Positions 7,730-38,196 of a DNA stretch of 64,000 nucleotides are shown here, piece by piece. Position 1 is the stretch's first letter. Each line of letters begins with the position of its first letter. Under the pieces are notes generated by a model. That model worked only from the letters and a program-made list of their open reading frames with translations, searched no databases and was not told the DNA's origin. The stretch comes from Bacillota bacterium. GTDB taxonomy: Bacteria > Bacillota > Sulfobacillia > DUSP01 > JBFMCS01. A program made the position numbers and the translations under genes. Where the stretch lies: assembly GCA_040754315.1 (NCBI GenBank), contig JBFMCS010000023.1:1-64000 (forward strand), written 5' to 3'.

Positions 7730-8503
7730 ATGGAGAGGTTACTTACAGCTCAGGAGTTGGCCAAGATGCTGAGCCTGTCGGTGGATACTATCTGGAGGTA
7801 TACGAGGCAAAGGAAGATACCCGCTGTGGAACTAGGGGAGAGACAGTACCGGTACAAGAAGGATGCAGTGCTGGCCGCCCTGGCGGCGCGTGGCCTGACT
7901 GCCAGGGAAGGGCGCCCTCAATACTCCGGGGAGGGCTGTTTAACCTACGAGGACTACTTGCAGATCCCGGAGGAACCCGGCTACCGGTTTGAGGTTCTGG
8001 AGGGGTTTCTGGTCAAAGAGCCTTCTCCTTCGGTGCATCACCAGCGGGTATTGCGCGAGCTGGGATACCAGCTGAGGGACTTCTTCCGGGGTCATGATCC
8101 CGAGGGTGAGGTCTTTTTGGCCCCTCTGGATAACACCCTGACGTCCAGCAATGTACTCCAACCGGACATCCTGTATGTGTCTGGCCCAAGGAGGGGAATT
8201 CTCCGTGAGGAACGGATTGACGGTCCCTGTGACCTGGTGGTAGAGATCATGTCGCCCTCCAATCGAAGGAAGGATCGGGTGCTAAAGATGGAAATCTACC
8301 GGAAGGCGGGGGTTCCTCACTACTGGCTGGTCGACCCTGAAGATGATACGCTGGAGGCCTTTGAGTTAAGAGATGGGTGCTACGCGCGGTTGTTTGCAGG
8401 TGGCCCGGGTGATAGGTTTGCTCACCCAGGTTTTCCAGGGCTGGATCTGGACCTGGATAGGGTGTTTCACCGGCCCGAACTTGCTTTACCGGAAGATGAA
8501 TAG
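7730..8503 (+). CDS. HTH (excisionase/MerR-like) - Uma2 nuclease-fold fusion protein
   Basis: A 257-residue protein of two parts. Residues 1-60 are an excisionase-type helix-turn-helix: LLTAQELAKMLSLSVDTIWRY, then RQRKIPAVELGERQYRYKK, the usual wing with an arginine-rich ridge. Residues 70-250 are a Uma2/DUF820 domain of the PD-(D/E)XK superfamily, with QPDILYV, DLVVEIMSPSN and YRKAGVPHYWLVDP, the core acidic residues being in place. Uma2 proteins are abundant in cyanobacteria and some Bacillota and have no settled function. ATG 7730 lies downstream of GGGGTGG. The gene stands alone, with no recognised partner. Confidence 0.85.
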   Translation: MERLLTAQELAKMLSLSVDTIWRYTRQRKIPAVELGERQYRYKKDAVLAALAARGLTAREGRPQYSGEGCLTYEDYLQIPEEPGYRFEVLEGFLVKEPSPSVHHQRVLRELGYQLRDFFRGHDPEGEVFLAPLDNTLTSSNVLQPDILYVSGPRRGILREERIDGPCDLVVEIMSPSNRRKDRVLKMEIYRKAGVPHYWLVDPEDDTLEAFELRDGCYARLFAGGPGDRFAHPGFPGLDLDLDRVFHRPELALPEDE

Positions 8504-8846: not shown

Positions 8847-9665
8847 CTAACTTTGGTCCATTACCAGGGCCTCATACAGTTCCGGTCTTCTGTCCCTGAA
8901 GAGGTAGAGTTCGTACTCTCCTGGGCGGTTAATGAGGTTCTTCTGTCTTGCTTTGCTGGGGTCGATCTCCACCATGAGGACTTCGGGGTCCGTTCCGGCC
9001 TTTGCCAGTACTTCACCAGTTGGGGATATCATCTGGCTGAGTCCGAGAAACCTGACTCCCTTTTCCTCACCCGCCCTATCGCTGGAAGCCACGTATACCC
9101 TGCTCTCCAGAGCCCGGGTTCTCCCTATGAAGTCTGCGTTTGCGTCTGCTCCTTGCGGCCAGTTGGTTATGTTGCAGACCAAGTCTGCACCCCTTAAAGC
9201 CAGTGACCTGGATACTTCTGGAAATCTCAGCTCGTAACAGATGAGGACTCCAAACCTGCCCACCCCTATGTCAACAACGGGTCCCGGGGCATTCCCCTTG
9301 GCGCAGAACCGATCCACGCCAAGAACCGGAAGGTGAGCCTTATGGTACTTCGTCAGATATCCGGTTGGGCCCAGTACTACAGCGGTGTTCAGGAGGGTTT
9401 GGTTGTGCCTTTCCAAGATACCTACTACGACATGAGCCTCCCCACATGCCCTGCACATTTCGTCTGTGGCGGGGCCCGGGACCTCTACGGCGATTTCCAT
9501 GGCTTCTGCACGGCTATCAAAGCAGTATCCTTGGAGGGCACACTCAGGGAACACGATGAGGTCAGCTCCCTCACCTGATGCCTGGCTAATGATCTCAAGG
9601 ATCTCGGCAAGGTTCTGTTCTGTTCGACCTATCTTGGGATCTGTCTGGGCAAGAGCTACCAGCAT
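8847..9665 (-). CDS. Carbon-nitrogen hydrolase (nitrilase superfamily)
   Basis: A 272-residue amidase-type enzyme with the full catalytic triad of the superfamily: Glu41 in VFPECALQG, Lys109 in KYHKAHLP and Cys143 in LICYELRFPE. These enzymes hydrolyse amides, omega-amides or N-carbamoyl amino acids, releasing ammonia. ATG 9665 has GGAGGG a few bases upstream. It is the last gene of a nine-gene minus-strand run after livM (45-base gap), so its substrate probably arrives through, or arises from, what that transporter takes in. Omega-amidase or N-carbamoyl-beta-alanine amidohydrolase activity would fit the neighbouring aminotransferase, but this is inference. Confidence 0.88.
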   Translation of the reverse strand: MLVALAQTDPKIGRTEQNLAEILEIISQASGEGADLIVFPECALQGYCFDSRAEAMEIAVEVPGPATDEMCRACGEAHVVVGILERHNQTLLNTAVVLGPTGYLTKYHKAHLPVLGVDRFCAKGNAPGPVVDIGVGRFGVLICYELRFPEVSRSLALRGADLVCNITNWPQGADANADFIGRTRALESRVYVASSDRAGEEKGVRFLGLSQMISPTGEVLAKAGTDPEVLMVEIDPSKARQKNLINRPGEYELYLFRDRRPELYEALVMDQS

Positions 9666-9710
9666 GTGAATCCCTCCATCATATATGGGCGTATGCGTCC
9701 GGCATTCTAA

Positions 9711-10670
9711 TCAGCTGACCCTGGAGCCGGTGGCTCGCAGCTTCACAAAGACACCCAAGTCTCTTGCTTTACGGCTGAGCATGGGGGCAATTCCCTCTGG
9801 CACGAACCGGACCACGAGAAGCATTATGAGCCCCAGAAGAACCAAGTGCATTTGCCCAAACTCCCTTAGGTACTCGGCGAGGAACTGAAGCCCCACCGCA
9901 CCGGCTACTGGTCCGAAAAAGGTTCCCATTCCTCCGCTGACCGCCATGGCAATTATCAGCGCCATCTGGGCTATTGTAGCGGATTCTGGACTCACTATCA
10001 TTGTATAGTGGGCGAGAAAGGCTCCGGCTACACCTGCGAAGAGACTGGTTATTACAAACGCTACCTGCCTGTATTTGACCACGTTGATACCTATCGAAGT
10101 GGATGCCACCTGGTCGTCTTTGATGGCCCGGAAGACTAGCCCAATCGGGGATGCCAGGACCCTGTCAAGCACAAGTAGCGTGAGTAAGGCCAAGGCCAGT
10201 GCTGCATAGAAGTAAGGCACCTTGGAAAGGGTGCTACCAAAGAGGGGGATACTGCTTAGGCCCAAGGAACCGCGAGTTATTTTATATTCTATGTTGATGG
10301 TGATTCTGAAGATCTGTGCGAATGCTATTGTCGTTAGTGCATGGTAGATACCTTTCGTCTTAATGCAGACAATGCCGAGTAAGAACCCCAGTGCACATGT
10401 GGCTACTGCCGCAATGCTAATGCCCAGGGCTGGGGGCACAGCCATCTTCAAGGCCAGCAAGGTTGACACATACCCGGCGAAAGTGCTGAATGCGGCCTGT
10501 GCGAAGGACATCTGACCCGCATACCCAGTGAGTACATTCCAGCTGCTAGCCATGATAACGTAGTAGAAGGCCATGATGGCCACATGCAGGGTGTACTCCC
10601 TCGCCACCAGAGGGAGCAATGAGACGATGGCCACTGTAGGGATTAGATACTTCCAGTGAAGGTGCCTCAT
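9711..10670 (-). CDS. livM: Branched-chain amino acid type ABC transporter permease LivM
   Basis: One of the two integral membrane subunits of a high-affinity amino-acid (HAAT) importer. The 319 residues contain about eight to nine hydrophobic segments, the family block WNVLTGYAGQMSFAQAAFSTFAGY near residue 45, and the EAA-like loop with FRAIKDDQVASTSIGINVVKYR near 200. The start overlaps the livH stop by four bases (ATGA). The cognate binding protein, ATPases and second permease are adjacent. The Liv family also carries urea, amides and other polar compounds, so the amino-acid label is provisional. Confidence 0.92.
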   Translation of the reverse strand: MRHLHWKYLIPTVAIVSLLPLVAREYTLHVAIMAFYYVIMASSWNVLTGYAGQMSFAQAAFSTFAGYVSTLLALKMAVPPALGISIAAVATCALGFLLGIVCIKTKGIYHALTTIAFAQIFRITINIEYKITRGSLGLSSIPLFGSTLSKVPYFYAALALALLTLLVLDRVLASPIGLVFRAIKDDQVASTSIGINVVKYRQVAFVITSLFAGVAGAFLAHYTMIVSPESATIAQMALIIAMAVSGGMGTFFGPVAGAVGLQFLAEYLREFGQMHLVLLGLIMLLVVRFVPEGIAPMLSRKARDLGVFVKLRATGSRVS

Positions 10671-11545
10671 AGGGTCTCGCCCCCAAACAGCCCGGTGGGT
10701 TTCACAAGGAGCACTAGCACGAGAACTAGGAACCCATATGCGTCACGATAGCTGGGAGACAACAACAGTACGCCCAAGTTCTCAAATACTCCCAGCATCA
10801 GAGCACCAAGCAGAGCTCCTTTGATGGACCCCATACCCCCGAGGACCAGGATGACGAAGGACTTGCCGGAGGGCAGTTCTCCCATCATTGGGGCCACAAC
10901 GAAGATGGGGCCGAGCAAGGCGCCCGAGGCGCCAGCCAGGAGCCCCCCAATTCCAAACCCCAGGGTGCTTATGCGGGAAACGTTGACTCCCATGGCGGCG
11001 GCCACCTCCCGATCCTGAGATGTGGCCCTGAGGGTGATTCCTACCACAGTACGCCTGATTACTTGCAGGAGCGCTATCAGCATGGTGAGGGCCAGGACAG
11101 CGGCCAGCAGGCGGCCAGCGCTGACGCTTAAGGGACCGATCTTGACGAAGCCTTGCGCCAAGGCAGGCGCGGCCACCTGGTAAGGACCGAACACCCTAAC
11201 CGCCAGGTTAATTAGGAAAAAGGACAATGCGAAAGTAATCAGCAGGTCGTAGTCTCCCACGGCCTTTCCAGAATAGAAGGGGGTGATGAGGAGTCTCTCA
11301 GTCGCCACTCCCAGGATGAAGGCGAAGGTCATGGCGAAGACCGCCGACAGGTAAGGGCTTAGTCCTAGCACGGTGCCGCAGAAATAGGAAATGTAGGCTG
11401 CCCACATGTAGAACTCACCGTGAGCGAAGTTAACAATCCTGAGCACCCCCAGGATGAGTGCGAGCCCTATGGCCATCAAGGCATAGATGCTGCCCATCAT
11501 TAGGCCGTTTACCAGGTAGGAGAGTACCATTTGCGATTGGCCCAT
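10667..11545 (-). CDS. livH: Branched-chain amino acid type ABC transporter permease LivH
   Basis: The second membrane subunit, 292 residues, with MMGSIYALMAIGLALILGVLRIVNFAHGEFYMWAAY, the hallmark LivH N-terminus, and the ATSQDREVAAAMGVNVSRI loop that meets the ATPases. ATG 11545 follows AGGAGGACGTGAA; the open frame extends to 11605 but the extra 20 residues carry no family sequence. It follows the binding-protein gene after a 63-base gap and overlaps livM by four bases. Confidence 0.92.
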   Translation of the reverse strand: MGQSQMVLSYLVNGLMMGSIYALMAIGLALILGVLRIVNFAHGEFYMWAAYISYFCGTVLGLSPYLSAVFAMTFAFILGVATERLLITPFYSGKAVGDYDLLITFALSFFLINLAVRVFGPYQVAAPALAQGFVKIGPLSVSAGRLLAAVLALTMLIALLQVIRRTVVGITLRATSQDREVAAAMGVNVSRISTLGFGIGGLLAGASGALLGPIFVVAPMMGELPSGKSFVILVLGGMGSIKGALLGALMLGVFENLGVLLLSPSYRDAYGFLVLVLVLLVKPTGLFGGETL

Positions 11546-11608
11546 TTCACGTCCTCCTCCTGCTTGTGCCGACGGGGGGATGTAGCAACATCCCCCCTCA
11601 AACACATC

Positions 11609-12841
11609 CTACTCGGGCGACTGCATATTCGCAGTGGCTACATCAGCAGGGTAGACAATTACGGCATCTTCTACTGCCTGATTGACCTCTGTGTACTGCA
11701 GGAAGAGCATAGGAGAGTCCGCATTATGGTACCACACACCCAATCCCTTATCGGTGGGAAACTCCATGATGCCTCGCACGCCGGTTACAGATATGACTTC
11801 CAGAGCTTCGATGATCTTCTGGGGATCAGTGCTCTCAGCAGCCTTGATAGCTTCGGCTATTACCAGGATGGAATCATAACCTGCTAGTGCCACATATGTG
11901 GGAGTTCGGTTGAACCTCGCTTCGTACTTTCTCACGAAAGGTTCAGTGAGATCTGTGAACTTGGCCTTAGCATGGTAGGGTGACTGGAATACCACATACC
12001 TCCCGGCCTCTCCTACGTTTGGCCAGAATTCCGGGAATGTCGCGTCCATCCCAGCCATGAACATGGCGGTTTTGCTTGTAGGCGACAGACCAATTTCGTA
12101 GGCTTGTTTTACAAGGAGGAAAGAGCCAGCCCCTGTTACGAAATGAACAAATAGGTCCGGGCCGAATTCCTGCAACTGTATCAGTTGGGGCACGAAGTCA
12201 AGACTAGTCCTATCCACGATCATCACCTTGTGCTCTAAGCCAAGGGCCCTCAGTTCGCTTTCTATCAGATCCATGCTGCCGATGCCGAAGTCCGTGTCTT
12301 CTACAATAGCGGCAACCCGCTGGAACCCATTTGCCTCCACGAACTCGCGAACCTTCTCGCTAAATGCTTTGTTGTTTGGCGCTATCCTAAACACCTCACG
12401 GTAGCCCCTGAGGGTCAGCTCATCGGACCACGCCTCGGATATCACAAAAGGTATACCATATCTATGGGCGACCTCCATCTCTGCCTTTGCCGCAGAACTG
12501 TGGGCCTCACCGGTCACGATGATTACCTGGTCTTTCGTAATTAGTTTCTCCATGACGGACACGCCCTTCTCGGGTGTGCCCTGTGAGTCCTCGAACACCA
12601 GCTGCAGCTTCTTGCCCAGGATTCCACCCTGTTCATTAATCTCGTCAATGGCGATTTCCATGGCATTTTTTAGTTCTGCACCTGCAGCTACGCTGCCGGG
12701 GGGAGAAAGGGGACCTACTGCCCCAATCTTGATGACCTCATCCTGAGAGGGTGGGGGGGTGGCGGACCCGGAGCCACAACCGCTGATGGCCAACACCAGT
12801 GATACTACCGCTAACAGGGCCAGCGTTCTCCTACCTTTCAT
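11609..12841 (-). CDS. livK: ABC transporter substrate-binding lipoprotein (LivK-type)
   Basis: The extracellular binding protein of the first liv system. It starts with MKGRRTLALLAVVSLVLAISGC, a signal peptide ending in a lipobox with the cysteine at about residue 21, followed by a serine/proline-rich linker and the periplasmic-binding fold type I (KIGAVGPLSPPG..., then a bilobed ligand-binding region). The 410-residue length is normal. ATG 12841 is preceded by GAGGGAGGTTAAG; an in-frame ATG at 12940 lies inside livF and is not used. The ligand is not evident: the sequence is only generally Liv-like and differs much from the second LivK at 21640. Confidence 0.9.
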   Translation of the reverse strand: MKGRRTLALLAVVSLVLAISGCGSGSATPPPSQDEVIKIGAVGPLSPPGSVAAGAELKNAMEIAIDEINEQGGILGKKLQLVFEDSQGTPEKGVSVMEKLITKDQVIIVTGEAHSSAAKAEMEVAHRYGIPFVISEAWSDELTLRGYREVFRIAPNNKAFSEKVREFVEANGFQRVAAIVEDTDFGIGSMDLIESELRALGLEHKVMIVDRTSLDFVPQLIQLQEFGPDLFVHFVTGAGSFLLVKQAYEIGLSPTSKTAMFMAGMDATFPEFWPNVGEAGRYVVFQSPYHAKAKFTDLTEPFVRKYEARFNRTPTYVALAGYDSILVIAEAIKAAESTDPQKIIEALEVISVTGVRGIMEFPTDKGLGVWYHNADSPMLFLQYTEVNQAVEDAVIVYPADVATANMQSPE

Positions 12842-12923
12842 GAACTTAACCTCCCTCTCGTTGTTCAGTGTTCTAACACCCGTGTTCTGACATCTTCCAT
12901 TACCAGGGACGTGTGTGTTGAGT

Positions 12924-13634
12924 TCAGACACCCCCTCCAAGGTAAGCCATCTCTATCTCCCCATGTCCAATCAGTTGGGAGGCAGTATCCGACAGTACCA
13001 CTTCTCCGGACTCCAAAACGTACGCTCTACTTGCGATTTCCAATGCTCGGTTGGCATTCTGCTCAACAAGAAGAATGGTGGTCCCGCGGGCGTTAATCTC
13101 GGATATGATTGAAAACACTTCGTCGACGATGGAGGGCGCCAATCCCATTGATGGTTCGTCCATTATTAGCAGGGTTGGATCAGACATGAGAGCACGGCCG
13201 ATAGCGAGCATTTGTTGCTCACCACCTGAAAGAGACCCGGCCATCTGGTTATGCCTCTGTGCTATTCGAGGAAACCGCAGGAATACTGACTCCATCTTCC
13301 GCTTTCGCTCCATGGATCTCCCAAGGGTGTACCCTCCCATGATCAGGTTCTCCGTGACGCTGAGTTCGGGGAACACACGCCGCCCCTCGAACACCATGGA
13401 TATGCCACTCCGAACGATTTCCGCCGTGGGTCTGTTGTCAATACGCCTACCCATAAATTCGATAGCCCCGGAACGGATGCATACGAGACCTAGTATTGTC
13501 TTTAGTGTGGTAGACTTGCCAGCCCCATTAGGCCCCAGTAGGGCTACTATCTCACCCTCCTTAACTTCCAGCGTGATGCCCTTTAGCACTAAAGACTCAT
13601 CGTAACCCGCGACAACTTCTTTCAGCGCTAGCAT
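12924..13634 (-). CDS. livF: Branched-chain amino acid type ABC transporter ATPase LivF
   Basis: A cytoplasmic ATPase of 236 residues: Walker A GPNGAGKST near residue 35, signature LSGGEQQMLAIGRAL, Walker B LLIMDEPSMGLAP and the switch histidine region further on. The SMGLAP after Walker B and short length are typical of LivF rather than LivG. It overlaps livG by seven bases and is followed by the binding-protein gene, an order (livG-livF-livK-livH-livM) different from the second cluster. Confidence 0.93.
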   Translation of the reverse strand: MLALKEVVAGYDESLVLKGITLEVKEGEIVALLGPNGAGKSTTLKTILGLVCIRSGAIEFMGRRIDNRPTAEIVRSGISMVFEGRRVFPELSVTENLIMGGYTLGRSMERKRKMESVFLRFPRIAQRHNQMAGSLSGGEQQMLAIGRALMSDPTLLIMDEPSMGLAPSIVDEVFSIISEINARGTTILLVEQNANRALEIASRAYVLESGEVVLSDTASQLIGHGEIEMAYLGGGV

Positions 13635-14395
13635 TTGCGGCCCCCCAGGTAAGCTTGAATTACGGTCTCGGAGTTCTTGACTTCCTCCGGTGTACCCTCA
13701 GCAATTACGGCCCCAAAATCCACCACGGTTATATGCTGGGAGACACTCATGACAACCCTCATATTATGCTCCACCAGTACTATGGTGGAGCCCCTGGCAC
13801 GGATCCTGTCGATGGTAGCAATCATGTCCTTGGCCTCCTGCGGGTTCATACCGCAGGTGGGTTCATCCAGGAGTAGCACAGAAGGTTTGACGGCTAGGGC
13901 GCGAGCGATCTCTAGCCTTCTCTGGTCACCATAGGAAAGGTTCTTGGCCATAATTCTCCGCCTATCGTTCAACTGCAGGAGTCCGAGTATATCCGAAATG
14001 GTAGCATCTGCTTCCGTGTCCCGCCCGTCGTCGCGACCGCTCGCAAGAGCCATTCGCCACAGGGAGAGACCTTGCTTGGTCTTGTACGCGACAAACACGT
14101 TTTCCCAGACTGTTAGGTTCTTGAAGAGTCTCAATGTCTGGAACGTTCTCCCTATTCCACTAGAAGCAATGACGTTGGGTGGCTTACCCACAAGTTCTTG
14201 ACCTCTCAACCGGATAGAGCCGCTATGGGGCCGCAATTGGCCAGAGATAAGGTTGAATATGGTGGTCTTCCCAGCGCCGTTAGGGCCAATTATCGAATGA
14301 ATAATTCCCTCTCTAATTTGACAACTAAAGGATTTCACGGCATGAACCCCGCCAAAGCTCTTGCTAAGGTTTGTGACCTCAAGAATTGTGTCCAA
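13628..14395 (-). CDS. livG: Branched-chain amino acid type ABC transporter ATPase LivG
   Basis: The 255-residue partner ATPase. It shows GPNGAGKTTIFNLISG (Walker A), GIGRTFQTLRLFKNLTVWENV (the Q-loop stretch characteristic of LivG), LSYGDQRRLEIARAL (signature) and LLDEPTCGMNPQE (Walker B). Cys in TCGMNP replaces the more usual Ala, a neutral variation. It stands first of the five transporter genes, 78 bases after the CoA-transferase gene. Confidence 0.93.
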   Translation of the reverse strand: MDTILEVTNLSKSFGGVHAVKSFSCQIREGIIHSIIGPNGAGKTTIFNLISGQLRPHSGSIRLRGQELVGKPPNVIASSGIGRTFQTLRLFKNLTVWENVFVAYKTKQGLSLWRMALASGRDDGRDTEADATISDILGLLQLNDRRRIMAKNLSYGDQRRLEIARALAVKPSVLLLDEPTCGMNPQEAKDMIATIDRIRARGSTIVLVEHNMRVVMSVSQHITVVDFGAVIAEGTPEEVKNSETVIQAYLGGRKC

Positions 14396-14473
14396 GACTC
14401 CTCACCTCCGGCACAGAGCTGGCTAATCCCAACTGACGGTATGCACAAGGTCTTAAGTCGCCTTGAAGACGGG

Positions 14474-15697
14474 CTACCCGATAATCCCATCCTGCCTCAA
14501 GTGATCTAGCCGGGTACCCTGGTATCCCAGGATTTGGGTTAGGACTTCATCTGTATGCTCTCCCAGCGCAGGGATACCTTTTGCGGCAATTTCTGTGCTA
14601 TCGGACAACCTGATGGGGGTTCGTACTAGCTTCTTGCCAGCCAGGGGGCCTGAGTGAATCGGACTAAGCATGTTTCTGGCAGCAACCTGTGGGCACTTGA
14701 ATACCTCTTCGGCCGTGTGGACGGGTCCGCCTGGAACTCCGGCACTGTTAAGGATGTTTGCTGCTTCAAGAGAATCTTTGTCCTCGAGCCAATTCTCGAT
14801 GGCGGGGCGTATGAGGTCTTCCGAGTGAGCAGCCCTGGAGCGGCCATCAGCGCACCTAGGGTCCCCTATAAGATCTTCTCTACCCATGCATGCGGCGAGT
14901 CTCTCCCACATGTAGTCTGAGGGAATGTTGATGGCTACATAGCCATCCCGGCTACGATATGCCCCTCTGGGCCCAAACAGCCTTTCATTTCCCCTGATTG
15001 GGACCTGCCCGGTGAAGGAGTAGATGGTCATTACTCGCTCGTTCAGGGCCACCATGGCGTCGAGCATGGAGATGTCTACCATCTGACCCTCACCGGTCCT
15101 GTCCCTGTCCAGCAGTGCTATGAGGATCCCCTGGACCGCCGCCTGGCCTGCTATTAGGTCTGCCAGGCCGTAGAGGGCGGAGACGGGCGGGCGGTCCTCG
15201 AACCCGATCATGTGCATGACACCGCTCATGGCCTCGGACACGATGTCGAAGGCGGGCCAGTCCGAGTAGGGGCCTCGATACCCGTCCAACTGGCCGAACC
15301 CACTAATAGCGCAGAACACCAGCCGGGGATTCTCCATCTTGAGGGGGCTGTAGCCAAGGCCCAGTTTGTCCATGACACCGGGACGGAAGTTCTCCACCAC
15401 CACATCGCTGGCCCGTGCCAGGGCCTTGAAGATGTCCTTACCCTCTTCCTTGCTGAGGTCCAGGGCAACGCTCTTCTTGTTGCGGTTGTACTCGGCGAAC
15501 CCCCAGGAGTGCTTCTCCCCATCCACCTCGAGAAAGGGTCCCATGGTACGCCGGGGGTCACCGCTGCCCGGCCTCTCCACTTTGATAACCCGTGCGCCAG
15601 CATCCGCCAGGAGCATGGTGCAGTAGGGCCCAGCGATGTACTGCTCGTTTGCCAGCACTGTGATATGCTCCAGGGGCCCTCTCAAACCACTCACCAA
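14474..15697 (-). CDS. CaiB/BaiF family (family III) CoA-transferase
   Basis: A 407-residue class III CoA-transferase that moves CoA between a donor acyl-CoA and a carboxylic acid. Visible family elements: ADAGARVIKVERPGSGDPRR near residue 31-50, YNRNKKSVALDL, VENFRPGVMDKLGLGY, and Asp180 in YGLADLIAGQAAVQGI, the place of the catalytic aspartate. It lies between the aminotransferase and the transporter genes, with 11 bases to the former. A plausible job is activating the carboxylate left after transamination. Members transfer CoA to formate, carnitine, bile acids, mesaconate and others, so the substrate is open. Confidence 0.9.
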   Translation of the reverse strand: MVSGLRGPLEHITVLANEQYIAGPYCTMLLADAGARVIKVERPGSGDPRRTMGPFLEVDGEKHSWGFAEYNRNKKSVALDLSKEEGKDIFKALARASDVVVENFRPGVMDKLGLGYSPLKMENPRLVFCAISGFGQLDGYRGPYSDWPAFDIVSEAMSGVMHMIGFEDRPPVSALYGLADLIAGQAAVQGILIALLDRDRTGEGQMVDISMLDAMVALNERVMTIYSFTGQVPIRGNERLFGPRGAYRSRDGYVAINIPSDYMWERLAACMGREDLIGDPRCADGRSRAAHSEDLIRPAIENWLEDKDSLEAANILNSAGVPGGPVHTAEEVFKCPQVAARNMLSPIHSGPLAGKKLVRTPIRLSDSTEIAAKGIPALGEHTDEVLTQILGYQGTRLDHLRQDGIIG

Positions 15698-15708
15698 GTC
15701 TCACCCTC

Positions 15709-17061
15709 TCAGAAGGACTTCAAGTGGACGCTCTCCTTGAGGGTTTCCTCCAGGATCCCCACCATGATGTCCATTTCGCCCTTCTCGATGACCAGTGGCG
15801 GGCCTATGAGGAAGTGATCCCCATCGCAGCCGTTGGCGGTCCCCCCTCCGGGGTAGATCACCAGGCCCTTGGACAGCGCCAGCCGGGTAATCCTCTCGGC
15901 CACACCCAGGCGGGCCTCAAAGGGTTCCTTCGTGGCCCTGTCCTTAACTAGCTCAATGCCCATCAGAAGCCCTTTGCCCCGAATGTCACCCACTATGGGT
16001 ATGTCCCTAAGAGGCTCTATGGCCTGCCACAGGTAGTCCCCGGCCTCCCGGGCACGCTCTACAATGTTCCTCTCTTCCATGTAGCGAAGTATCCGGTCAC
16101 CTACGGCACAGCTCAGCGGGTTACCCCCGTAGGTGTAACCGTGGGCGAATTTGCCGGTTCCCTCCTCAAAGGCTTGGTAGAGACGGCTCGAGGCGATGAC
16201 GGCACCCAGAGGTGCGTACCCTGCGCTGATCCCTTTTGCAGTTACGATGATGTCGGGGAGTGCCTGCCAGTGCTCGATAGCGAAGTTGGTCCCGGTACGG
16301 CCCATGCCGCACATGACCTCATCGGCGATGAACACTACATCATAACGCCTGCATGTCTCCTGGATTATCTCGTAGTACCCCGGGGGAGGCGTGATGCCGC
16401 CTCCAGCGGCCCCGCCCACGGGCTCCGCGATGAAGGCAGCCACGTTGTCAGGGCCCTCCGCCCTGATGGCATCCCCCAGCTCGTGGGCACAACGCAGGGA
16501 GCACTCAGAATACTCATCCCCATAGGGGCACCGGTAGCAGTAGGGGGCTGATATGTGGGTTGCCGCAGGGCTAAGCAGCGGGGTGAACTTGGATTTCCTG
16601 CCAGGGTGGCCGGTCATGGAGAGGGCGCCTATGGTAGATCCGTGGTAGCTGAGTCTCCTGGAGATCACCTTGTACTTACAGGTATGCCCGTCCCTCTCGA
16701 GAAAGTACTGCCTAGCCATCTTCAGCGCTGACTCAGTGGCTTCCGAACCTCCTGAGACGATCCAAACCTTGTCCAGATCCCCCGGCGCCATGCTGGCAAG
16801 GCGCCTGGAGAGGTCGATAGCAGGGCGTGTGGTGAACCTGGACTGATGGGCGAAGCACACCCTCTCGCATTGCTCGTGGATGGCTTCGATAATCTCCCGC
16901 ACGCCGTGTCCAAGGTTCGTCACCAGCGCGCCTGAGCACCCGTCGAGGTAACGATGGCCGTCCTCATCGTACAAGTAGACGCCCTCCGCTCTGGCGATTA
17001 CGGGGTACGGTCTCTTCAGGTCCCTCTGGAACACATGGGCCTTTGACTCCACCGTGGTCAC
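15709..17061 (-). CDS. Class III (omega) aminotransferase
   Basis: A 450-residue PLP-dependent aminotransferase. GGSEATESALKMAR (about 104-117) is the phosphate-binding region, DEVMCGMGRTG (247-257) carries the cofactor-binding Asp, and Lys276 in IVTAKGISAGYAPLGAV forms the Schiff base. The C-terminal block GGTANGCDGDHFLIGPPLVI is typical of aspartate-aminotransferase-superfamily members that use omega-amino acids, beta-alanine, taurine or putrescine with pyruvate. The motif CYRCPYGDEYSECSLRCAHEL resembles the clade found with uptake genes in Bacillota. It is second in the operon, four bases after the regulator gene. Confidence 0.9.
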   Translation of the reverse strand: MTTVESKAHVFQRDLKRPYPVIARAEGVYLYDEDGHRYLDGCSGALVTNLGHGVREIIEAIHEQCERVCFAHQSRFTTRPAIDLSRRLASMAPGDLDKVWIVSGGSEATESALKMARQYFLERDGHTCKYKVISRRLSYHGSTIGALSMTGHPGRKSKFTPLLSPAATHISAPYCYRCPYGDEYSECSLRCAHELGDAIRAEGPDNVAAFIAEPVGGAAGGGITPPPGYYEIIQETCRRYDVVFIADEVMCGMGRTGTNFAIEHWQALPDIIVTAKGISAGYAPLGAVIASSRLYQAFEEGTGKFAHGYTYGGNPLSCAVGDRILRYMEERNIVERAREAGDYLWQAIEPLRDIPIVGDIRGKGLLMGIELVKDRATKEPFEARLGVAERITRLALSKGLVIYPGGGTANGCDGDHFLIGPPLVIEKGEMDIMVGILEETLKESVHLKSF

Positions 17062-17064
17062 CTC

Positions 17065-17940
17065 CTATATATCGCGCTGGGCAGGTCGCTCGTAGATCCC
17101 ATGTTCCTCCCACACCCGTTCAAGGTCGCGAAGGGCCTTGGTGACTTCGTCCCTCTTTCGCACCCCTACAGATGCCACCAGTGCGTTTATTAGGCTCAGC
17201 GGGGCAACGAAGGAATCAACAAAGGAAGCCATACTTGTCTTGGCCGTGAGCAGGATGTCGGCCTTCGTGGCCAAGGGGGAGAGCACGCCATCGGTTATGG
17301 CTATGATCTTAGACCCGTTCTTGCGCGCAAGGTCCACGAAACTCACGGTTTGCCGGGTGTACCTGGGGAAGCTGATCCCGATGACAACATCCTCGGGCCC
17401 CGAATCCGCTATGGGCTCCAGCGATGAGAAGCCGCAGTTCCCCATTATGGTCACGTTCTTTAACACCCAGCTCAGGCAGAAGCCCAGGAAGTAGGCGAGG
17501 GAGGAGGCACTCCGGAAACCCACAACATATATACGCCGGGCTGAACATAGGGCAGCCACGGCATCATCGAAGGTATCTGCGGAGATGTTCTTGATGGTGA
17601 GGGCGATGTTCTCCATGTCCGTATGCATCACCCTCTGGAAGAGAGGGCCTTCCTGGGGGGATGAGTTGGCGTCATCAACGGAGCCTGCCAGGCGTTGGAC
17701 TGTGCTAATCTTGTTCACCAGCATTTCCTGGAGGTTCCGTTGGAGTTCGGGGTAGCCCGAGTAGCCAAGAGCTGTGGCAAACCGGACCACCGTGGACTCG
17801 GATACGCCCACCTTTCGCCCTAGAGCAGCGGCGGTGAGAAAGGCAGCTGTTTCCCTGTCCTGGAGGATCCAGGAGGCGATGAGTTTCTGGCCGTCGCTGA
17901 GTTCCGGCATCTGCCTGATAATCCTATCCTCAAGCTCCAT
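17065..17940 (-). CDS. RpiR family transcriptional regulator (HTH + SIS)
   Basis: A 291-residue regulator: N-terminal HTH_6 domain (TAAALGRKVGVSESTVVRFATALGYSGYPELQ, about 37-68) and a C-terminal SIS sugar-isomerase-type domain (about 120-255, with VVGFRSASSLAYFLGF and GISFPRYTRQTVSFVDLARKNGSKIIAITD). SIS domains in this family bind phosphosugars or other metabolites as the signal. ATG 17940 follows AGGGGG at eight bases. It heads the aminotransferase/CoA-transferase/liv/nitrilase run and most likely controls that run and itself through repeats at 17952-18048. Confidence 0.9.
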   Translation of the reverse strand: MELEDRIIRQMPELSDGQKLIASWILQDRETAAFLTAAALGRKVGVSESTVVRFATALGYSGYPELQRNLQEMLVNKISTVQRLAGSVDDANSSPQEGPLFQRVMHTDMENIALTIKNISADTFDDAVAALCSARRIYVVGFRSASSLAYFLGFCLSWVLKNVTIMGNCGFSSLEPIADSGPEDVVIGISFPRYTRQTVSFVDLARKNGSKIIAITDGVLSPLATKADILLTAKTSMASFVDSFVAPLSLINALVASVGVRKRDEVTKALRDLERVWEEHGIYERPAQRDI

Positions 17941-17996: not shown

Positions 17997-18022
17997 TGCT
18001 TTAGCATTCTACATTCTAATTC

Positions 18023-18048
18023 AGAATCCTCTTTCCAATTAGGATTCT
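18023..18048. promoter_or_regulatory. Perfect inverted repeat AGAATCCT-N10-AGGATTCT
   Basis: Eight-base arms with a ten-base spacer, 83 bases upstream of the RpiR gene start on its upstream side. There is no T-run, so an operator or a leader-RNA hairpin is more likely than a terminator. The surrounding 17941-18056 is the AT-richest part of this region, as expected for a promoter. Confidence 0.4.
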
Positions 18049-18112
18049 GCTCCCTGTTGAAGGCAGGGGAAAAGACTGGGTACGGGAGGTGGCAGGACTT
18101 CGGGGAAGATAG

Positions 18113-18140
18113 AAAAGGCAGCGGACCATTGCCCGCTGCC
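18113..18140 (-). terminator. Rho-independent terminator of the second liv operon
   Basis: Reading on the minus strand, GGCAGCGG, an eight-base loop and CCGCTGCC are followed by TTTTCT. It starts 18 bases after the livF stop and closes the livKHMGF operon before the RpiR promoter region. Confidence 0.85.
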
Positions 18141-18158
18141 TCTGCGCCGGGGGAGGTA

Positions 18159-18863
18159 CTACGCCCCGAGATAAGCCTTCTTCACCAGTTCGTTCCTAGC
18201 CAGGGATTGGGCCTCTCCCTCCAGGACAAGCCTCCCTGTCTCCAGGACGTATGCCCTGTTGGCTACTCCCAGGGCCATGTGGGCGTTCTGCTCCACGAGG
18301 AGAATGGTCACGCCCTCCCTGTTGATGCTCTCGATGATGGAGAATATCTCCCTTACCAGAAGGGGTGCCAGTCCCATGGAGGGCTCATCCATCACCAGGA
18401 GCCTGGGTTTGGCCATGAGGCCCCTGGCGATGGCCAGCATCTGCTGCTCACCGCCAGAGAGGGTTCCCCCGATCTGGCCCAACCGCTCCTTCAGGCGGGG
18501 GAAGTGGTGGAACACCACTTCCAGGTCTTGCTGGATGCCGCCCTTGTCCTTTCGGGCATAGGCGCCCATCTCCAGGTTCTCCATGACCGTGAGGTTCGCG
18601 AAGATCCTGCGTCCCTCGGGTACATGGGACAGCCCGCGTTCCACGATCTTGTGGGCGGGCACAGGCAGCAGTGACTCCCCCCGGAATCGCACATCCCCCG
18701 AGGCTGGGCGCAGGATGCCTGATACCGCCCTTAGGGTGGTGCTCTTGCCAGCCCCGTTCGCACCGATGATGGCTACCACCTCGCCCTGCTCTACCTTGAT
18801 CGAAATACCGTCGAGGGCGTGGATGCCGCCGTAATAGACGTGCAGATCCTTGATCTCCAGCAT
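18159..18863 (-). CDS. livF: Branched-chain amino acid ABC transporter ATPase LivF (second cluster)
   Basis: ATPase of 234 residues with GANGAGKSTT (Walker A), LSGGEQQMLAIARGLM (signature) and LLVMDEPSMGLAP (Walker B). It is the last gene of a canonical livK-livH-livM-livG-livF operon and its ATG overlaps the livG stop by one base. About half of its residues match the first cluster's LivF, so the two clusters are old paralogues rather than a recent duplication. Confidence 0.94.
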   Translation of the reverse strand: MLEIKDLHVYYGGIHALDGISIKVEQGEVVAIIGANGAGKSTTLRAVSGILRPASGDVRFRGESLLPVPAHKIVERGLSHVPEGRRIFANLTVMENLEMGAYARKDKGGIQQDLEVVFHHFPRLKERLGQIGGTLSGGEQQMLAIARGLMAKPRLLVMDEPSMGLAPLLVREIFSIIESINREGVTILLVEQNAHMALGVANRAYVLETGRLVLEGEAQSLARNELVKKAYLGA

Positions 18864-19642
18864 CAGTGCGCCTCCTCTCCGAGGTAGGCCTCGATAACCT
18901 TGGGGTTGCTCTTGATCTCGTCAGGTGACCCCTCGGCGATGGTGACCCCGTAGTCCAGGACAAGGATACGTTTGCACACTCCCATGATGACTTCCATGTG
19001 GTGCTCAATGAGGATGATGGTTAGATCGAACCTCTCCTTGAGCCACACGATGAGCTTCATCAGGTCCTTGATCTCCTGGGGGTTCATGCCAGCCGCCGGC
19101 TCATCCAGGAGAAGCACCTTGGGCTGGGTTGCCAGGGCCCTGGCGATTTCCAGGCGCCGCTGCTCTCCATAGGGCAGGTTCTTGGAGATACTGGCCTGCC
19201 TGCCTTTCAGGTCGAAGATCTCCAGGAAGTCCAGGGACTTCTGGTGGATCTCCTCTTCCTCCCTGTGGTACGCGGGGAGTCTCATGATGGCGTGGGCTAC
19301 ACTGTACTTGACATTGAAGTGATAGGCGATCTTGACGTTCTCCACCACGCTGAGTTCCTTGAAGAGCCTGATGTTCTGGAACGTCCTGGCGATGCCCATC
19401 TGCGTTATCTCGTCAGGTCGCCTGCCCACCAGGGAGAGTGCCCGGCCGTCCGGCCTGAACTCCATGGAGCCCTCGGTAGGCCTGTACTCGCCGGTGATCA
19501 TGTTGAACACCGTAGTCTTGCCGGCGCCGTTGGGGCCGATGATCCCCACCAGCTCGCCACGCTCCAGCTGGAGGTTGAAGTCGGACACGGCCCTGAGTCC
19601 TCCGAAGTTGATGGAAAGTCCCTGTATGTCCAGAAGAGCCAT
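18863..19642 (-). CDS. livG: Branched-chain amino acid ABC transporter ATPase LivG (second cluster)
   Basis: A 259-residue ATPase with GPNGAGKTTVFNMITG, the LivG-type GIARTFQNIRLFKELSVVENV stretch, LPYGEQRRLEIARAL and LLDEPAAGMNPQE. All are as in standard LivG. One base separates it from livM, consistent with tight translation within the operon. Confidence 0.94.
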   Translation of the reverse strand: MALLDIQGLSINFGGLRAVSDFNLQLERGELVGIIGPNGAGKTTVFNMITGEYRPTEGSMEFRPDGRALSLVGRRPDEITQMGIARTFQNIRLFKELSVVENVKIAYHFNVKYSVAHAIMRLPAYHREEEEIHQKSLDFLEIFDLKGRQASISKNLPYGEQRRLEIARALATQPKVLLLDEPAAGMNPQEIKDLMKLIVWLKERFDLTIILIEHHMEVIMGVCKRILVLDYGVTIAEGSPDEIKSNPKVIEAYLGEEAH

Positions 19643-19643
19643 G

Positions 19644-20648
19644 CTACTTCACCCCCTCCTGTTTCCCGGCATCGGCGGAGGGCTTCCCCAAGAGCCCAGC
19701 CAGGCGGTCGAAGCTGACCTCGAAGCCGCCCATAAGGCCCTGAGGCCTCGTCAGCATCACGACGATCAGGAGGAGACCGTACACCAGCATCCTCCACTCC
19801 TGGATGAACCGGAGCGCTTCCGTGAGCCCCGTGATCAGGGTTGCGGCCACTATGGCCCCGGTTATGCTCCCATAGCCGCCCACCACGATCATGATAAGGT
19901 AGTCCACGGACTTCATGATGCCGAACATCTTCGGGTGAGCCAGCTGGAGGGTGTGTACTAGGAGACCGCCGGCGACCCCGGCGAAGAAGGAGCCTATCAC
20001 GAACACGGTCACCTTGTAGCGAGTTACGTTTATACCCATGGCCCGGGCGGCGATTTCATCCTCCCTTATGGACTTGCAGGCCCGGCCGTGGCTGGATGTG
20101 ACGAAGTTGATGATGATGAGCACGGTGGCCACGGCAAAGAGGTAGGTCCAGAAGAAGCTGGAGTAGGGGGGAATGCCCGTGAAGCCGCGGGGCCCGCCCA
20201 CCTTGTCGATGTTGTTCATTACAACCCGGATTATCTCCCCAAATCCCAGGGTCGCAATGGCGAGGTAGTCACCGCCAAGGCGAAGGGTAGGCGTTCCGAC
20301 CACGAAGCCCATCGCCATGGCGCAGATCCCGCCCATGATGATCGAGGGGATGAAGGGGAAGCCCAGGAACACCGTGAGGGAGCCCGAGGTGTAGGCGCCT
20401 ATTGCCAGGAAGCCTGCGTGCCCGATGGAAAACAGGCCGGTAAACCCATTTATAAGGTTCAGGCTCACGGCGCCGATGACGTTGATGGCTGCTATGGATA
20501 GGATCTGCATGTAGTAGGGGTTGTGTCCCGCCACAGCAATTACCAGGAAGTAGAGGGCTGAAAGGGCAGCCGCAGTACCTATGACACGAACGGGGCCGGG
20601 GATGACATGGGGGCGGGTTGCCGTTTCCGTCTTGACTGATCTGGCCAT
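19644..20648 (-). CDS. livM: Branched-chain amino acid ABC transporter permease LivM (second cluster)
   Basis: A 334-residue permease with LNLINGFTGLFSIGHAGFLAIGAYTSG, the LivM core block, and CKSIREDEIAARAMGINVTRYKV, the ATPase-contact loop. Roughly nine hydrophobic helices follow a charged 20-residue N-terminus. The start at 20648 follows GGGGGGAGA. Together with livH it forms the channel. Confidence 0.94.
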   Translation of the reverse strand: MARSVKTETATRPHVIPGPVRVIGTAAALSALYFLVIAVAGHNPYYMQILSIAAINVIGAVSLNLINGFTGLFSIGHAGFLAIGAYTSGSLTVFLGFPFIPSIIMGGICAMAMGFVVGTPTLRLGGDYLAIATLGFGEIIRVVMNNIDKVGGPRGFTGIPPYSSFFWTYLFAVATVLIIINFVTSSHGRACKSIREDEIAARAMGINVTRYKVTVFVIGSFFAGVAGGLLVHTLQLAHPKMFGIMKSVDYLIMIVVGGYGSITGAIVAATLITGLTEALRFIQEWRMLVYGLLLIVVMLTRPQGLMGGFEVSFDRLAGLLGKPSADAGKQEGVK

Positions 20649-20660
20649 TTCTCTCCCCCC

Positions 20661-21533
20661 CTACACCTTCTCGCTGAGCTGGCGTCCCAGGAGGCCTTGA
20701 GGCCTCAGGAGCAGCACAACGATGAGTATGGCGAAGGCTACCGCATCCCTCCACTTGGAGCTGTAGAGGTAGACAACCATGATCTCCGCCATTCCCATGA
20801 CAAGCCCACCCAGCATTGCGCCGGGGATGTTGCCTATGCCTCCGAGCACAGCTGCAATGAACGCCTTCATACCTGGCAGGAGTCCCATGACCGGATCGAT
20901 GCGGGGGTAAGCTATTCCCACCAGCACACCCGCGGCTGCCGCCAGGGTGGAGCCCAGCACGAAGGTGACGGATATCACGTAGTCCAAGTCTATCCCCATG
21001 AGCCTCGCGGCGTCCTTGTCATAAGACACCGCCCTCATGGCCTTGCCTACCTTGGTCCGCCTCACGATGAACTGGAGCACCATCATGAGGGTGAACGCCA
21101 CGCCAACCACCAGGATGGTTATGTTGTTAATGATGACGCCGCCGACATTGTAGGTATGAGGGGTCATGATCTGGGGAAAGGGTCGGTAGTCGGCTCCGAT
21201 GAACTGCCTTACGAAGTTCTGCAGAAAAATCGAAACCCCCAGGGCTGTGCTGAGGGCTGCTAGCCGGGGAGCGAAACGTAGGGGCCGGTAGGCAAATCGC
21301 TCGATTATGAGGGCAAGGACCGGGGTGAGCAGCATAGGTATCACCAGTGTGGGTAAGAAGAAGGGGCCCAGGTAGCCCGCGACAAAATACCCGATATACG
21401 CGCCTGCCATGTAGATCTCGCCGTGAGCGAAATTGATCAGACGGACGATGCCGTACACCATGGTATACCCGAGGGCGATAAGGGCGTATATTGATCCCAG
21501 CTGAATGCCGTTCACCATCTGCTGGAAGAACAA
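20661..21533 (-). CDS. livH: Branched-chain amino acid ABC transporter permease LivH (second cluster)
   Basis: A permease of 290 residues beginning (M)FFQQMVNGIQLGSIYALIALGYTMVYGIVRLINFAHGEIYM, the standard LivH N-terminus. The TTG at 21533 is preceded by AGGGAGGA (21541-21548), which sets the start; the frame stays open to 21590, but the extra residues are proline/arginine-rich and unconserved. It is 106 bases downstream of the binding-protein gene, a usual gap that lets the binding protein be made in excess. Confidence 0.93.
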   Translation of the reverse strand: MFFQQMVNGIQLGSIYALIALGYTMVYGIVRLINFAHGEIYMAGAYIGYFVAGYLGPFFLPTLVIPMLLTPVLALIIERFAYRPLRFAPRLAALSTALGVSIFLQNFVRQFIGADYRPFPQIMTPHTYNVGGVIINNITILVVGVAFTLMMVLQFIVRRTKVGKAMRAVSYDKDAARLMGIDLDYVISVTFVLGSTLAAAAGVLVGIAYPRIDPVMGLLPGMKAFIAAVLGGIGNIPGAMLGGLVMGMAEIMVVYLYSSKWRDAVAFAILIVVLLLRPQGLLGRQLSEKV

Positions 21534-21639
21534 GTTGTCATCCTCCCTTACCAGGCGGGGACATGGACAGCGGGGGGAAGAGCCCCCCACTGTCCACGCT
21601 TGTCAGCCAAGGATGCCCGCCATGTCTTGGCCTTCCCCC

Positions 21640-22827
21640 TTAGGGGTTAACCACGGTGTAGAACTTGAACTTGCCGTTCTCGATCTTGTTGACAACGGCA
21701 GCCTTGATGGGGTTGCGGTTGGCGTCATACGTAGTCTTGCCGGACACCACCTCAAGATCGGTGGCGGCCATGGCGTCGCGAATGGCGGAGCCCTCAGTGG
21801 AACCGGCCTTCTCGATGGCCTCAAAGAGGATCAGCGCTGCATCGTAGGCCAGGGCGGCCAGGGCGTCCGGGGTCTTGCCGTACTTGTCATTGTAGGCCTT
21901 CAAGAATGCCTGGGCGACGGGGGTGTCGGAGTCCGGCGAATAGTGGTTGGCGTGGTAGCCGCCCTCGATGGCATCCCCGGCGATGGAGATGAGGTCCGGG
22001 GAGTCCCAGCCGTCAGCACCTAACATCTGGACGTCCCAGCCCATCTCCCTCACCTGCTTGGCTTGGAGAGCGGCGGTCTGGTAGTACTGGGGCAGGAACA
22101 GCACCTCGGGCTCAGCGGCCTTGATCTTGGTCAGCTGTGCCCTGAAGTCCTGGTCGCCGCTGGCGTGGGTCTCAAAGGCCACCACGGTGCCGCCCATGTT
22201 CTCAAGGTGCTTCTTGAACTCCTCAGCCAGTCCCTTGGTGTAGTCGTTCTCTATGTCATACAACACGGCCGCGGTCTTGGCCTGCAGGTTTTCGGTGCTG
22301 AACTTGGCCATGACGAAGCCCTGGAACGGGTCGATGAAGCAAGCCCGGAAGATGTAGTCGCCGGTCAGCGTCACCCGCTCGTTGGTGGAGGTCGGGCTGA
22401 TCATGGGGATCTTGGCCTCCTGGGCTATGGGGGCGATGGCCAGGCTGCACACGGAGTACACGGAGCCAATAATCGCCACTACCTTATCCTGGTTTACCAG
22501 CTTCCGCCCGGCGTTGGCCGCCTCGACAGCGTCACCCTTGTCGTCCTCCAGGACCCATTCTATCTGCCTGCCCAGGACGCCGCCCTTGGCGTTGTACTCC
22601 TCAACGGCTAGGAGCACACCGTCCCTGGTGGATGCGCCGAAGGTGGGCGTCTCTCCGGTCATCGGGGCGATGATACCGATCTTGATGCTCTCGGTGGCAA
22701 CCGGTTCTTCCTCGCCTTCCTCCTCCTCAGGGGCAGGCTGCGGCTGGCCGCATCCTGCCAAGCTGGCTAGGAGCGTAACGACCAGAACGGCCACAATGCC
22801 CCATCTGACAAAACCTTTTGCGAACAT
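21640..22827 (-). CDS. livK: Branched-chain amino acid ABC transporter substrate-binding lipoprotein (LivK)
   Basis: A lipoprotein of 395 residues: signal peptide MFAKGFVRWGIVAVLVVTLL..., a lipobox LASLAGC, then an acidic linker (EEEEGEEE) and a type I periplasmic-binding fold starting SIKIGIIAPMTGETPTFG. ATG 22827 follows GGGGGAAGAGA; an open frame back to 23010 covers the leader and promoter and cannot be coding. It is first in the operon. The KIGIIAPMTG and LDDKGD-like segments agree with leucine/isoleucine/valine-binding proteins, though related proteins bind other amides. Confidence 0.92.
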   Translation of the reverse strand: MFAKGFVRWGIVAVLVVTLLASLAGCGQPQPAPEEEEGEEEPVATESIKIGIIAPMTGETPTFGASTRDGVLLAVEEYNAKGGVLGRQIEWVLEDDKGDAVEAANAGRKLVNQDKVVAIIGSVYSVCSLAIAPIAQEAKIPMISPTSTNERVTLTGDYIFRACFIDPFQGFVMAKFSTENLQAKTAAVLYDIENDYTKGLAEEFKKHLENMGGTVVAFETHASGDQDFRAQLTKIKAAEPEVLFLPQYYQTAALQAKQVREMGWDVQMLGADGWDSPDLISIAGDAIEGGYHANHYSPDSDTPVAQAFLKAYNDKYGKTPDALAALAYDAALILFEAIEKAGSTEGSAIRDAMAATDLEVVSGKTTYDANRNPIKAAVVNKIENGKFKFYTVVNP

Positions 22828-22870
22828 CTTTTTGTCTCTTCCCCCTTCAGGTTTGTTTCCAGACCATGCT

Positions 22871-22887
22871 GGCCCGTGAAACGGGCC
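22871..22887. other. Leader hairpin before livK
   Basis: GGCCCGT-GAA-ACGGGCC makes a perfect seven-base-pair hairpin with a three-base loop in the livK leader, about 45 bases before the start codon. It could block or protect the message end. No known riboswitch class is recognised in the roughly 150-base leader. Confidence 0.4.
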
Positions 22888-22980
22888 TCTCGGGAACTCA
22901 ACCCTCCAATGCCCGGGCATCCCTCCCCTCAAGATTGGAGGTTCCTGAGAAAAGATAACCTGCTCGGACCATCGCTCACA

Positions 22981-23010
22981 ATTATAGGTTAGTCCTAGCG
23001 GGCTTGTCAA
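22981..23010 (-). promoter_or_regulatory. Promoter of the second liv operon
   Basis: On the minus strand TTGACA (23010-23005) and TATAAT (22986-22981) are separated by 18 bases. Both hexamers are perfect consensus for the housekeeping sigma factor, so the operon should be strongly expressed unless repressed. The RNA would have a leader of about 150 bases. Confidence 0.85.
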
Positions 23011-36814: not shown

Positions 36815-37224
36815 TGGTGGGTGGAGGGGTGAGGGAAGCGGCGCACCCTGCGAGACGCACGCCTCCCCATTCGCTTTGCTCCGTCACCCGGTGCCCTCGG
36901 GCCCGTGAAGCAGCCAGGCTTAGAAGATTCAAATGGGGGAGACGGTAACAGTGTGCTGGTGGCGAGGCAATACGGATGTTTGCCCTGGCAGGTCGCGAGA
37001 CGCTTAGAGGAACGCTGTGCCGTGCATCCAGCCTGGTGTTCATGTCGCGTTCCACGGCTCACCCTGGGTTTCCTCGGTTTCCGGGAATTTACGCTGGTAG
37101 CGTTCCCGACGCCTTCGCGCGTGGCCTCGACCCGCCACCACGCGAGTGTTCCTGAAGTGTGCAGGGGATTACGGACGTAGTCATAGAAAAAGAGGGTTAA
37201 CAATAGGAGGGAGGGTGTTTGGCA
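36815..37224. other. Intergenic stretch before the agmatinase-like gene
   Basis: No gene supported. The last 30 bases are AT-rich and carry GGAGGGAGGG for the next gene. A remote open frame on the minus strand is arginine/proline-rich and looks random. I see no insertion-sequence ends or direct repeats that would explain the different composition of the following gene. Confidence 0.35.
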
Positions 37225-38196
37225 ATGACTGATTATAAGAAACATCATCCCATTGATTCTTCTGTTGTTTCTCGATTTTGCGGTGTACGGTCATTCATGC
37301 GTCTTCCCCAGCTTCAGACCACTGAAGATGCAGACTTTGCGATTATTGGCGCACCTGCGGACACCGGTTCTACCTTCCGCACAGGCTCACGATTTGCGCC
37401 TGCAGCAATTCGTGAAATGTCAATGATGCTTCGAGCTGCCAGCGTTAACCTGGATATTAATATTTTCCAGTACGTATCTGGCGTGGATTTCGGAGACATC
37501 AATGTCAGCCCCTGTAACCTGGCAAGAGCCCATGAGGCTATTGAAGAAGGAATTAAACCTATCTTAGACGGTGGCGCCATTTCCATCTGCCTGGGCGGCG
37601 ATCATTCCATCACGTTACCGGAGTTACGGGCTGTTGCAAAGGAACATGGCCCAGTTGCGCTGGTTCAGTTTGATGCCCATCTTGATACATACGATATTGA
37701 AAACGGTGATACCCTTACTCACGGCACACCATTCAAAATCGCAGTTGACGAAGGATTGATCGACACTACTCACTCTATCCAGATCGGAACCCGCGGGTTA
37801 TTCGACATGTCTGCAATCAAGACTTCTGAGGACCTAGGATTTCAAGTTATCACAGCGGAACAGGTTCATAAGCTTGGTCTGGATAGGGTGGGTCAGATTA
37901 TTAATGGGCGTGTTGGCAACAAGAAGGCGTTTTTGACCTTTGACATTGACTTTGTGGATCCTGCCTATGCCCCCGGCACTGGTACCATTGAAGTTGGTGG
38001 TTTCACTAGCTATGAATCTCTGTATCTCCTGCGCCAGACCAAAGGCATCAATTATGTGGCGTGCGATGTAGTGGAAGTTATCCCAGCGTTTGACCCCACA
38101 CAGATTACTGCATATATGGCTGGATGCGTTGTCCATGAGTTTATTGCAATGCTAGCGTGCAGAAAGAAGCGGGAGTTTGAAGCACAGAATTCTTAA
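37225..38196 (+). CDS. Agmatinase/ureohydrolase family protein
   Basis: A 323-residue binuclear manganese ureohydrolase with all metal motifs: GGDHSITLPE, DAHLDTYD and DIDFVDPAYAPGTGT. Agmatinase splits agmatine to putrescine and urea; relatives act on guanidinobutyrate, guanidinopropionate or proclavaminate, and the sequence does not choose among them. ATG 37225 follows GGAGGGAGGG. Its third-codon positions are visibly A/T-richer than those of every neighbour, and it stands alone between two non-coding stretches, a sign of recent transfer. Confidence 0.88.
   Translation: MTDYKKHHPIDSSVVSRFCGVRSFMRLPQLQTTEDADFAIIGAPADTGSTFRTGSRFAPAAIREMSMMLRAASVNLDINIFQYVSGVDFGDINVSPCNLARAHEAIEEGIKPILDGGAISICLGGDHSITLPELRAVAKEHGPVALVQFDAHLDTYDIENGDTLTHGTPFKIAVDEGLIDTTHSIQIGTRGLFDMSAIKTSEDLGFQVITAEQVHKLGLDRVGQIINGRVGNKKAFLTFDIDFVDPAYAPGTGTIEVGGFTSYESLYLLRQTKGINYVACDVVEVIPAFDPTQITAYMAGCVVHEFIAMLACRKKREFEAQNS

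Follow-up and report, generated by a model that had tools for sequence, protein, structure and literature searches.

A nine-gene unit with an RpiR-aminotransferase-CaiB core and a liv importer, predicted to take up and degrade β-amino acids by way of 3-oxo acids

The window, by which we mean the whole 64,000-nucleotide stretch of contig JBFMCS010000023.1 analysed here, carries nine open reading frames on its minus strand between 8847 and 17940, and Pfam and NCBIfam agree for each gene with the family given in the initial annotation. Read from the first gene to the last, they encode an RpiR-family regulator with HTH_6 and SIS domains (17065..17940; PF01418, PF01380), a class III aminotransferase (15709..17061; PF00202), a family III or CaiB-type CoA-transferase (14474..15697; PF02515), a LivG-type ATPase (13628..14395; PF00005, PF12399), a LivF-type ATPase (12924..13634; Pfam and NCBIfam), a LivK-type substrate-binding lipoprotein (11609..12841; PF13458 and alignment with E. 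coli LivK and LivJ), LivH-type and LivM-type permeases (10667..11545 and 9711..10670; both PF02653) and a nitrilase-superfamily C-N hydrolase (8847..9665; PF00795). LivK, H, M, G and F together amount to a complete HAAT/Liv ABC importer. We read the more plausible start of LivK, judged by its lipoprotein signal, as 12841, and LivH probably begins at about 11545, short of its open reading frame, which extends to 11605; with these two starts corrected, the gaps from the RpiR gene to the nitrilase gene are 3, 11, 78, -7, 82, 63, -4 and 45 bp. The coordinates, common strand and close spacing (-7 to 82 bp) first reported thus hold, and we infer that the nine genes form an operon. A 218-bp gap containing a strong terminator-like hairpin (18114..18143, minus strand) parts the unit from a second complete liv cluster (F, G, M, H, K; 18159-23010), which lies directly upstream on the same strand and at whose end the hairpin is situated; terminator-like sites are overall no commoner in the window than in shuffles (9 found, shuffled mean 7.9). 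The same gap contains a perfect 9-bp inverted repeat, CAGAATCCT-N10-AGGATTCTG (18022..18049, minus strand), a candidate operator upstream of RpiR. No similar inverted repeat occurs upstream of RpiR in the 11 relatives compared, and a search ahead of the unit's RpiR gene gave no sigma-70-like promoter.

The positions that we take to form the canonical α-amino-acid pocket of LivK are, in E. coli numbering, Ser79, Thr102, Tyr150, Tyr202 and Glu226. The LivK of the unit keeps Ser79 and carries T102W, Y150F, Y202T and E226D; it thus lacks most of the pocket residues of a leucine-type Liv importer, and the aligned changes argue against ordinary leucine-type binding. LivK2 of the upstream cluster has Ser, Thr, Tyr, Tyr and Asp at 79, 102, 150, 202 and 226, and so retains Thr102, Tyr150 and Tyr202. 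The AlphaFold model of LivK has a mean pLDDT of 77.1 (seven sequences). A fold search ties receptors for amino acids, aromatic acids, keto acids, urea and amides, and hence names no ligand and leaves families outside this list as further candidates.

The aminotransferase has its catalytic K276 in place and scores 501.7 against the NCBIfam model NF005685 (PRK07483; cut-off 485) and 511.4, just under the cut-off of 535, against NF005375 (PRK06917). Its relatives reach 59% identity within the class, with further ones in the phylum and beyond, and omega-transaminases are among those nearest to it that have been solved. In a tree of 72 sequences, made by a quick method, it falls in a set of 25, of which 19 come from the clade set. 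Four cysteines (C175, C178, C187 and C191) are invariant in 15 aligned relatives and may form a metal site. The window's genome yields sixteen class III aminotransferase matches; another of its contigs (G000:C14, locus L043) carries, one after the other, a paralogue of the aminotransferase, another class III aminotransferase, an S-Me-THD (DUF917) protein and an additional liv cluster, and genes for CoA-transferase and thiolase are close by.

The genes beside the relatives of the aminotransferase point to its chemistry. A β-keto acid cleavage enzyme (BKACE), a family III or class I CoA-transferase or a thiolase is encoded within 8 kb of it at 15 of 18 class loci, a tally that is partly circular because the reference families were chosen after reading these loci; the class loci suggested the enzyme categories, and the phylum and named sets serve as the test. 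The same kinds of enzyme are found at 8 of 10 phylum loci (Fisher p = 6e-5; seven genomes, with L169 and L170 being near-identical aminotransferases of one genome) and, among the matches listed, at 9 of 11 named loci with at least 47% identity and at 43 of 80 named loci overall, or about half. The comparable figure is 2 of 26 for control class III aminotransferases, which are the last rows of the listing of that class (27 considered, G064:C387 left out) and are unmatched in contig size. They are missing at 3 class loci, including a lone paralogue from the window's genome (L044), and at 2 phylum loci, although of these L036 and L175 lie on short contigs; among the other tallied loci so does L168. 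As the references were few single proteins, searched by tblastn at no less than half coverage, distant neighbours may have been missed. The partners vary: BKACE comes with a TAXI-TRAP transporter in G011 and G037, and a class I CoA-transferase with a thiolase or thiolase-like enzyme in, for example, G002:C17, G020 and G050. Liv clusters lie near clade aminotransferases at G066:C62, G000:C14 and a Synergistaceae locus (L059), and other transporter kinds (TAXI-TRAP, SSS, Dpp) at other loci. The partner enzymes all act on 3-oxo acids or the corresponding CoA esters, which is most simply explained if the aminotransferase forms these acids from 3-amino acids; we therefore predict, from family, tree and neighbourhoods, a β-amino acid:3-oxo acid transaminase.

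The CaiB-type protein has the PF02515 domain and catalytic Asp151 of a family III CoA-transferase, and lies below every named NCBIfam cut-off (best 296 against 700). Its type occurs at 10 places in 9 of the 154 class genomes and, counting the window, shares a contig with a nearby aminotransferase gene at 7 of these; in G047 the two genes are on separate contigs, and at G000:C52 and G011:C22 there is no aminotransferase nearby. The copy at G000:C52 (L178), which is in the window's own genome and is 67% identical, adjoins a TAXI binding protein. At six clade loci (L031-L035, L038) and at L180 the CaiB type is found together with a thiolase and never with a BKACE or class I CoA-transferase, and CaiB and thiolase lie near the aminotransferase in G002, G015, G031, G068, G083 and G029. 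Such neighbourhoods suggest that the CaiB-type enzyme is a 3-oxo acid CoA-transferase. The open-licence literature yielded nothing on family III CoA-transferases acting with acetoacetate and thiolase, an absence that means little. The operon itself has no thiolase; the window's genome has three strong ones.

RpiR genes, 41-53% identical, adjoin the aminotransferase gene in other genomes and lie within 8 kb of it at 7 of 18 class and 4 of 10 phylum loci (11 of 28 clade loci), as against none of 26 controls. This co-conservation is in line with the earlier proposal that RpiR, identified by its family, regulates the unit, and its control of the nine genes is probable. The RpiR-aminotransferase core is often accompanied by the CaiB type and thiolase (G002, G015, G031, G068), by BKACE or by a class I CoA-transferase. 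The RpiR-aminotransferase-CaiB core thus recurs in other genomes, without orthologous liv and nitrilase genes. Among the 154 class genomes no LivK relative outside the window's genome exceeds 34% identity (E up to 1e-40), and the nitrilase has a single other place at the cut-off applied, 39% identical (E up to 1e-45), so that neither has a clear orthologue. Under the check first proposed for the locus, the full RpiR, aminotransferase, CaiB, nitrilase and liv set is not conserved in relatives. Within the searches made the exact nine-gene set is specific to the window's genome, in which the importer and nitrilase genes may have been put together locally with an enzyme core that is itself conserved.

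The BKACE partners bear on the side chain of the substrate. In Kce, Glu14 is in contact with the substrate's 5-amino group (PMC10470551), and BKACEs have been reported to fall into substrate groups by charge (PMC4922564). On alignment with the solved Kce, 13 of the 14 BKACE copies that partner the window's side of the family have Val where Kce has Glu14; of the remaining 26, mostly from Proteobacteria, 21 have Arg. We take this as a sign that substrates of the window's branch have neutral side chains and those of the other branch acidic ones. In the window's genome searches found neither a KamA-family enzyme (control positive in 9 of 14 genomes) nor a BKACE (control positive in 1 of 14); with lysine 2,3-aminomutase and Kce absent, the genome does not have the set for lysine fermentation (Kam/Kdd/Kce/Kat). 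Given this and its three thiolases, a β-amino acid would have to be taken up from the surroundings and then processed by CoA-transferase and thiolase.

Taken together, these observations lead us to propose, with a probability of roughly 60% and on sequence comparisons, that the unit serves the uptake and breakdown of a β-amino acid with a neutral side chain through its 3-oxo acid, CoA loading and thiolysis. LivKHMGF, whose identity is clear from family, would import the β-amino acid or an amide derivative; the aminotransferase, as its relatives' neighbours suggest, would convert the β-amino acid to the 3-oxo acid; the CaiB-type enzyme would place this on CoA; and one of the thiolases encoded elsewhere in the genome would split the 3-oxoacyl-CoA into acetyl-CoA and a shorter acyl-CoA. 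The nitrilase might, at a guess, hydrolyse an amide, located in the side chain or else formed by an N-acyl or N-carbamoyl group. Of the function first suggested for the locus, a regulated uptake and catabolism unit with deamination and CoA loading is retained, and the substrate class changes from omega-amino acids to β-amino acids and 3-oxo acids, with thiolysis added as the final step that was lacking. The route then envisaged, in which amide hydrolysis is followed by conversion of an omega-amino acid to a semialdehyde and CoA loading of the carboxylate, would suit class III aminotransferases, which often use omega-amines, and the omega-transaminases among the nearest solved relatives; but the semialdehyde dehydrogenase to be expected is absent from the operon, and the relatives' neighbours are β-keto-acid enzymes (aldehyde dehydrogenases lay outside the tally), which makes this route very unlikely.

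A rather unlikely variant reverses the order of the steps, with the CaiB-type enzyme loading the β-amino acid first and the aminotransferase acting on the β-aminoacyl-CoA. The precedent would be Kat, the 3-aminobutyryl-CoA aminotransferase of lysine fermentation, which acts exclusively on CoA esters and has its gene linked to a thiolase gene (PMC3149608); the CaiB gene moreover adjoins the aminotransferase gene in the window. We read the function of the clade aminotransferases from their neighbours, having come across no clade member with a tested activity. An enzyme acting on CoA esters as Kat does would be expected to give very similar neighbourhoods. Against this, BKACE, a partner in many relatives, needs a free β-keto acid (PMC4922564), and these partner BKACEs, which lack the Glu14 that has the above role in Kce (PMC10470551), are unlikely to be a lysine-fermentation Kce feeding Kat. 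Kat resembles the window aminotransferase in being a class III enzyme that acts at the β position and is thiolase-linked, and its description (PMC3149608) sets it apart as a HemL-like enzyme specific for CoA esters. It is likewise improbable, in our estimate, that only RpiR, aminotransferase and CaiB form a working unit and that the liv importer and nitrilase, encoded downstream by chance, belong to another process. In favour of such an assembly, no orthologue of LivK or the nitrilase stands beside the core in the 154 class genomes; the tight one-strand spacing and the Liv clusters near other clade aminotransferases, with other transporters elsewhere, speak against it.

The nitrilase has a CN_hydrolase domain with the Glu-Lys-Cys triad of the superfamily (E41-K109-C143), reaches no NCBIfam cut-off and has its nearest solved relatives in the PH0642/3ivz nitrilase group. 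Amide hydrolases (nitrilase, M20, M81 or Amidohydro_3) lie within 8 kb at 3 of 18 class loci, 1 of 10 phylum loci and, among the matches listed, 11 of 80 named loci, as compared with 4 of 26 controls; we therefore rejected them as a recurrent partner, the exception being M20 in Bacillus-type clusters. The 2.9-Mb genome has eleven CN_hydrolase matches, one of them just beyond the end of the window (C23:64055), and genes for M81 (MlrC-like) metallopeptidases lie close to clade aminotransferases at L034, L169 and L054.

AblA and AblB produce N6-acetyl-β-lysine, an osmolyte of methanogens. At six Bacillales loci (L051, L052, L057, L058, L060, L061) the aminotransferase is found with class I CoA-transferase subunits and AblA and AblB relatives, those at L052 exceeding the TIGR03820 and TIGR03827 cut-offs, and five of the six also have an M20 deacylase. 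Such kamA/ablB (yodTSRQP-type) clusters point to N6-acetyl-β-lysine, which is a specific candidate substrate for the unit too. One might then picture uptake of methanogen-released N6-acetyl-β-lysine by the Liv importer, transamination (EC 2.6.1.65), family III activation of 6-acetamido-3-oxohexanoate, thiolysis to 4-acetamidobutyryl-CoA and deacetylation by the nitrilase-type enzyme, a scheme that we regard as quite unlikely in this full form. EC 2.6.1.65, N6-acetyl-β-lysine transaminase, is presumably a sequence-orphan activity, for which we know of no sequence, and it would be the activity to expect of the Bacillus relatives and perhaps of the window aminotransferase; nor do we know of a family III CoA-transferase that activates 6-acetamido-3-oxohexanoate. 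The Bacillus clusters resemble the unit in having an aminotransferase of the same family beside a CoA-transferase and an amide-hydrolysing enzyme. They differ in that the window has CaiB in place of the class I CoA-transferase, the nitrilase in place of the M20 enzyme and an importer, and lacks AblA and AblB at the locus and any KamA-family enzyme in the genome. Also close to the unit are the clusters of RpiR and aminotransferase with BKACE and TAXI/TRAP (G011:C8, G037:C7) or with CaiB and thiolase (G015, G031, G068), which share its regulator type and aminotransferase clade, and the latter also its CaiB type; in contrast to the window they have another importer or none nearby, a BKACE or thiolase in the cluster and no nitrilase.

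The proposal supplies a large family of uncharacterised aminotransferases, and a CaiB type, with a function that can be tested, lets one BKACE residue predict side chains for each branch of the family, and may indicate a route for bacterial β-amino acid recycling. The family includes B. subtilis YodT, which is listed as uncharacterised (PMC6522883). We found no earlier assignment for YodT or for N6-acetyl-β-lysine transaminase in the open-licence literature, where absence means little. If the N6-acetyl-β-lysine reading were true, the whole YodT family would be β-amino acid transaminases, with a side-chain type matched to the BKACE partner. Elsewhere in the window, an HTH_17 DNA-binding domain is fused to a Uma2 nuclease-like domain (7730-8503), two PLP-dependent (PALP) genes come after an arginase-family gene on the plus strand (37219-41116), and a protein whose N-terminal and C-terminal halves each have P-loop matches (42704-43822) shows an apparent internal duplication.
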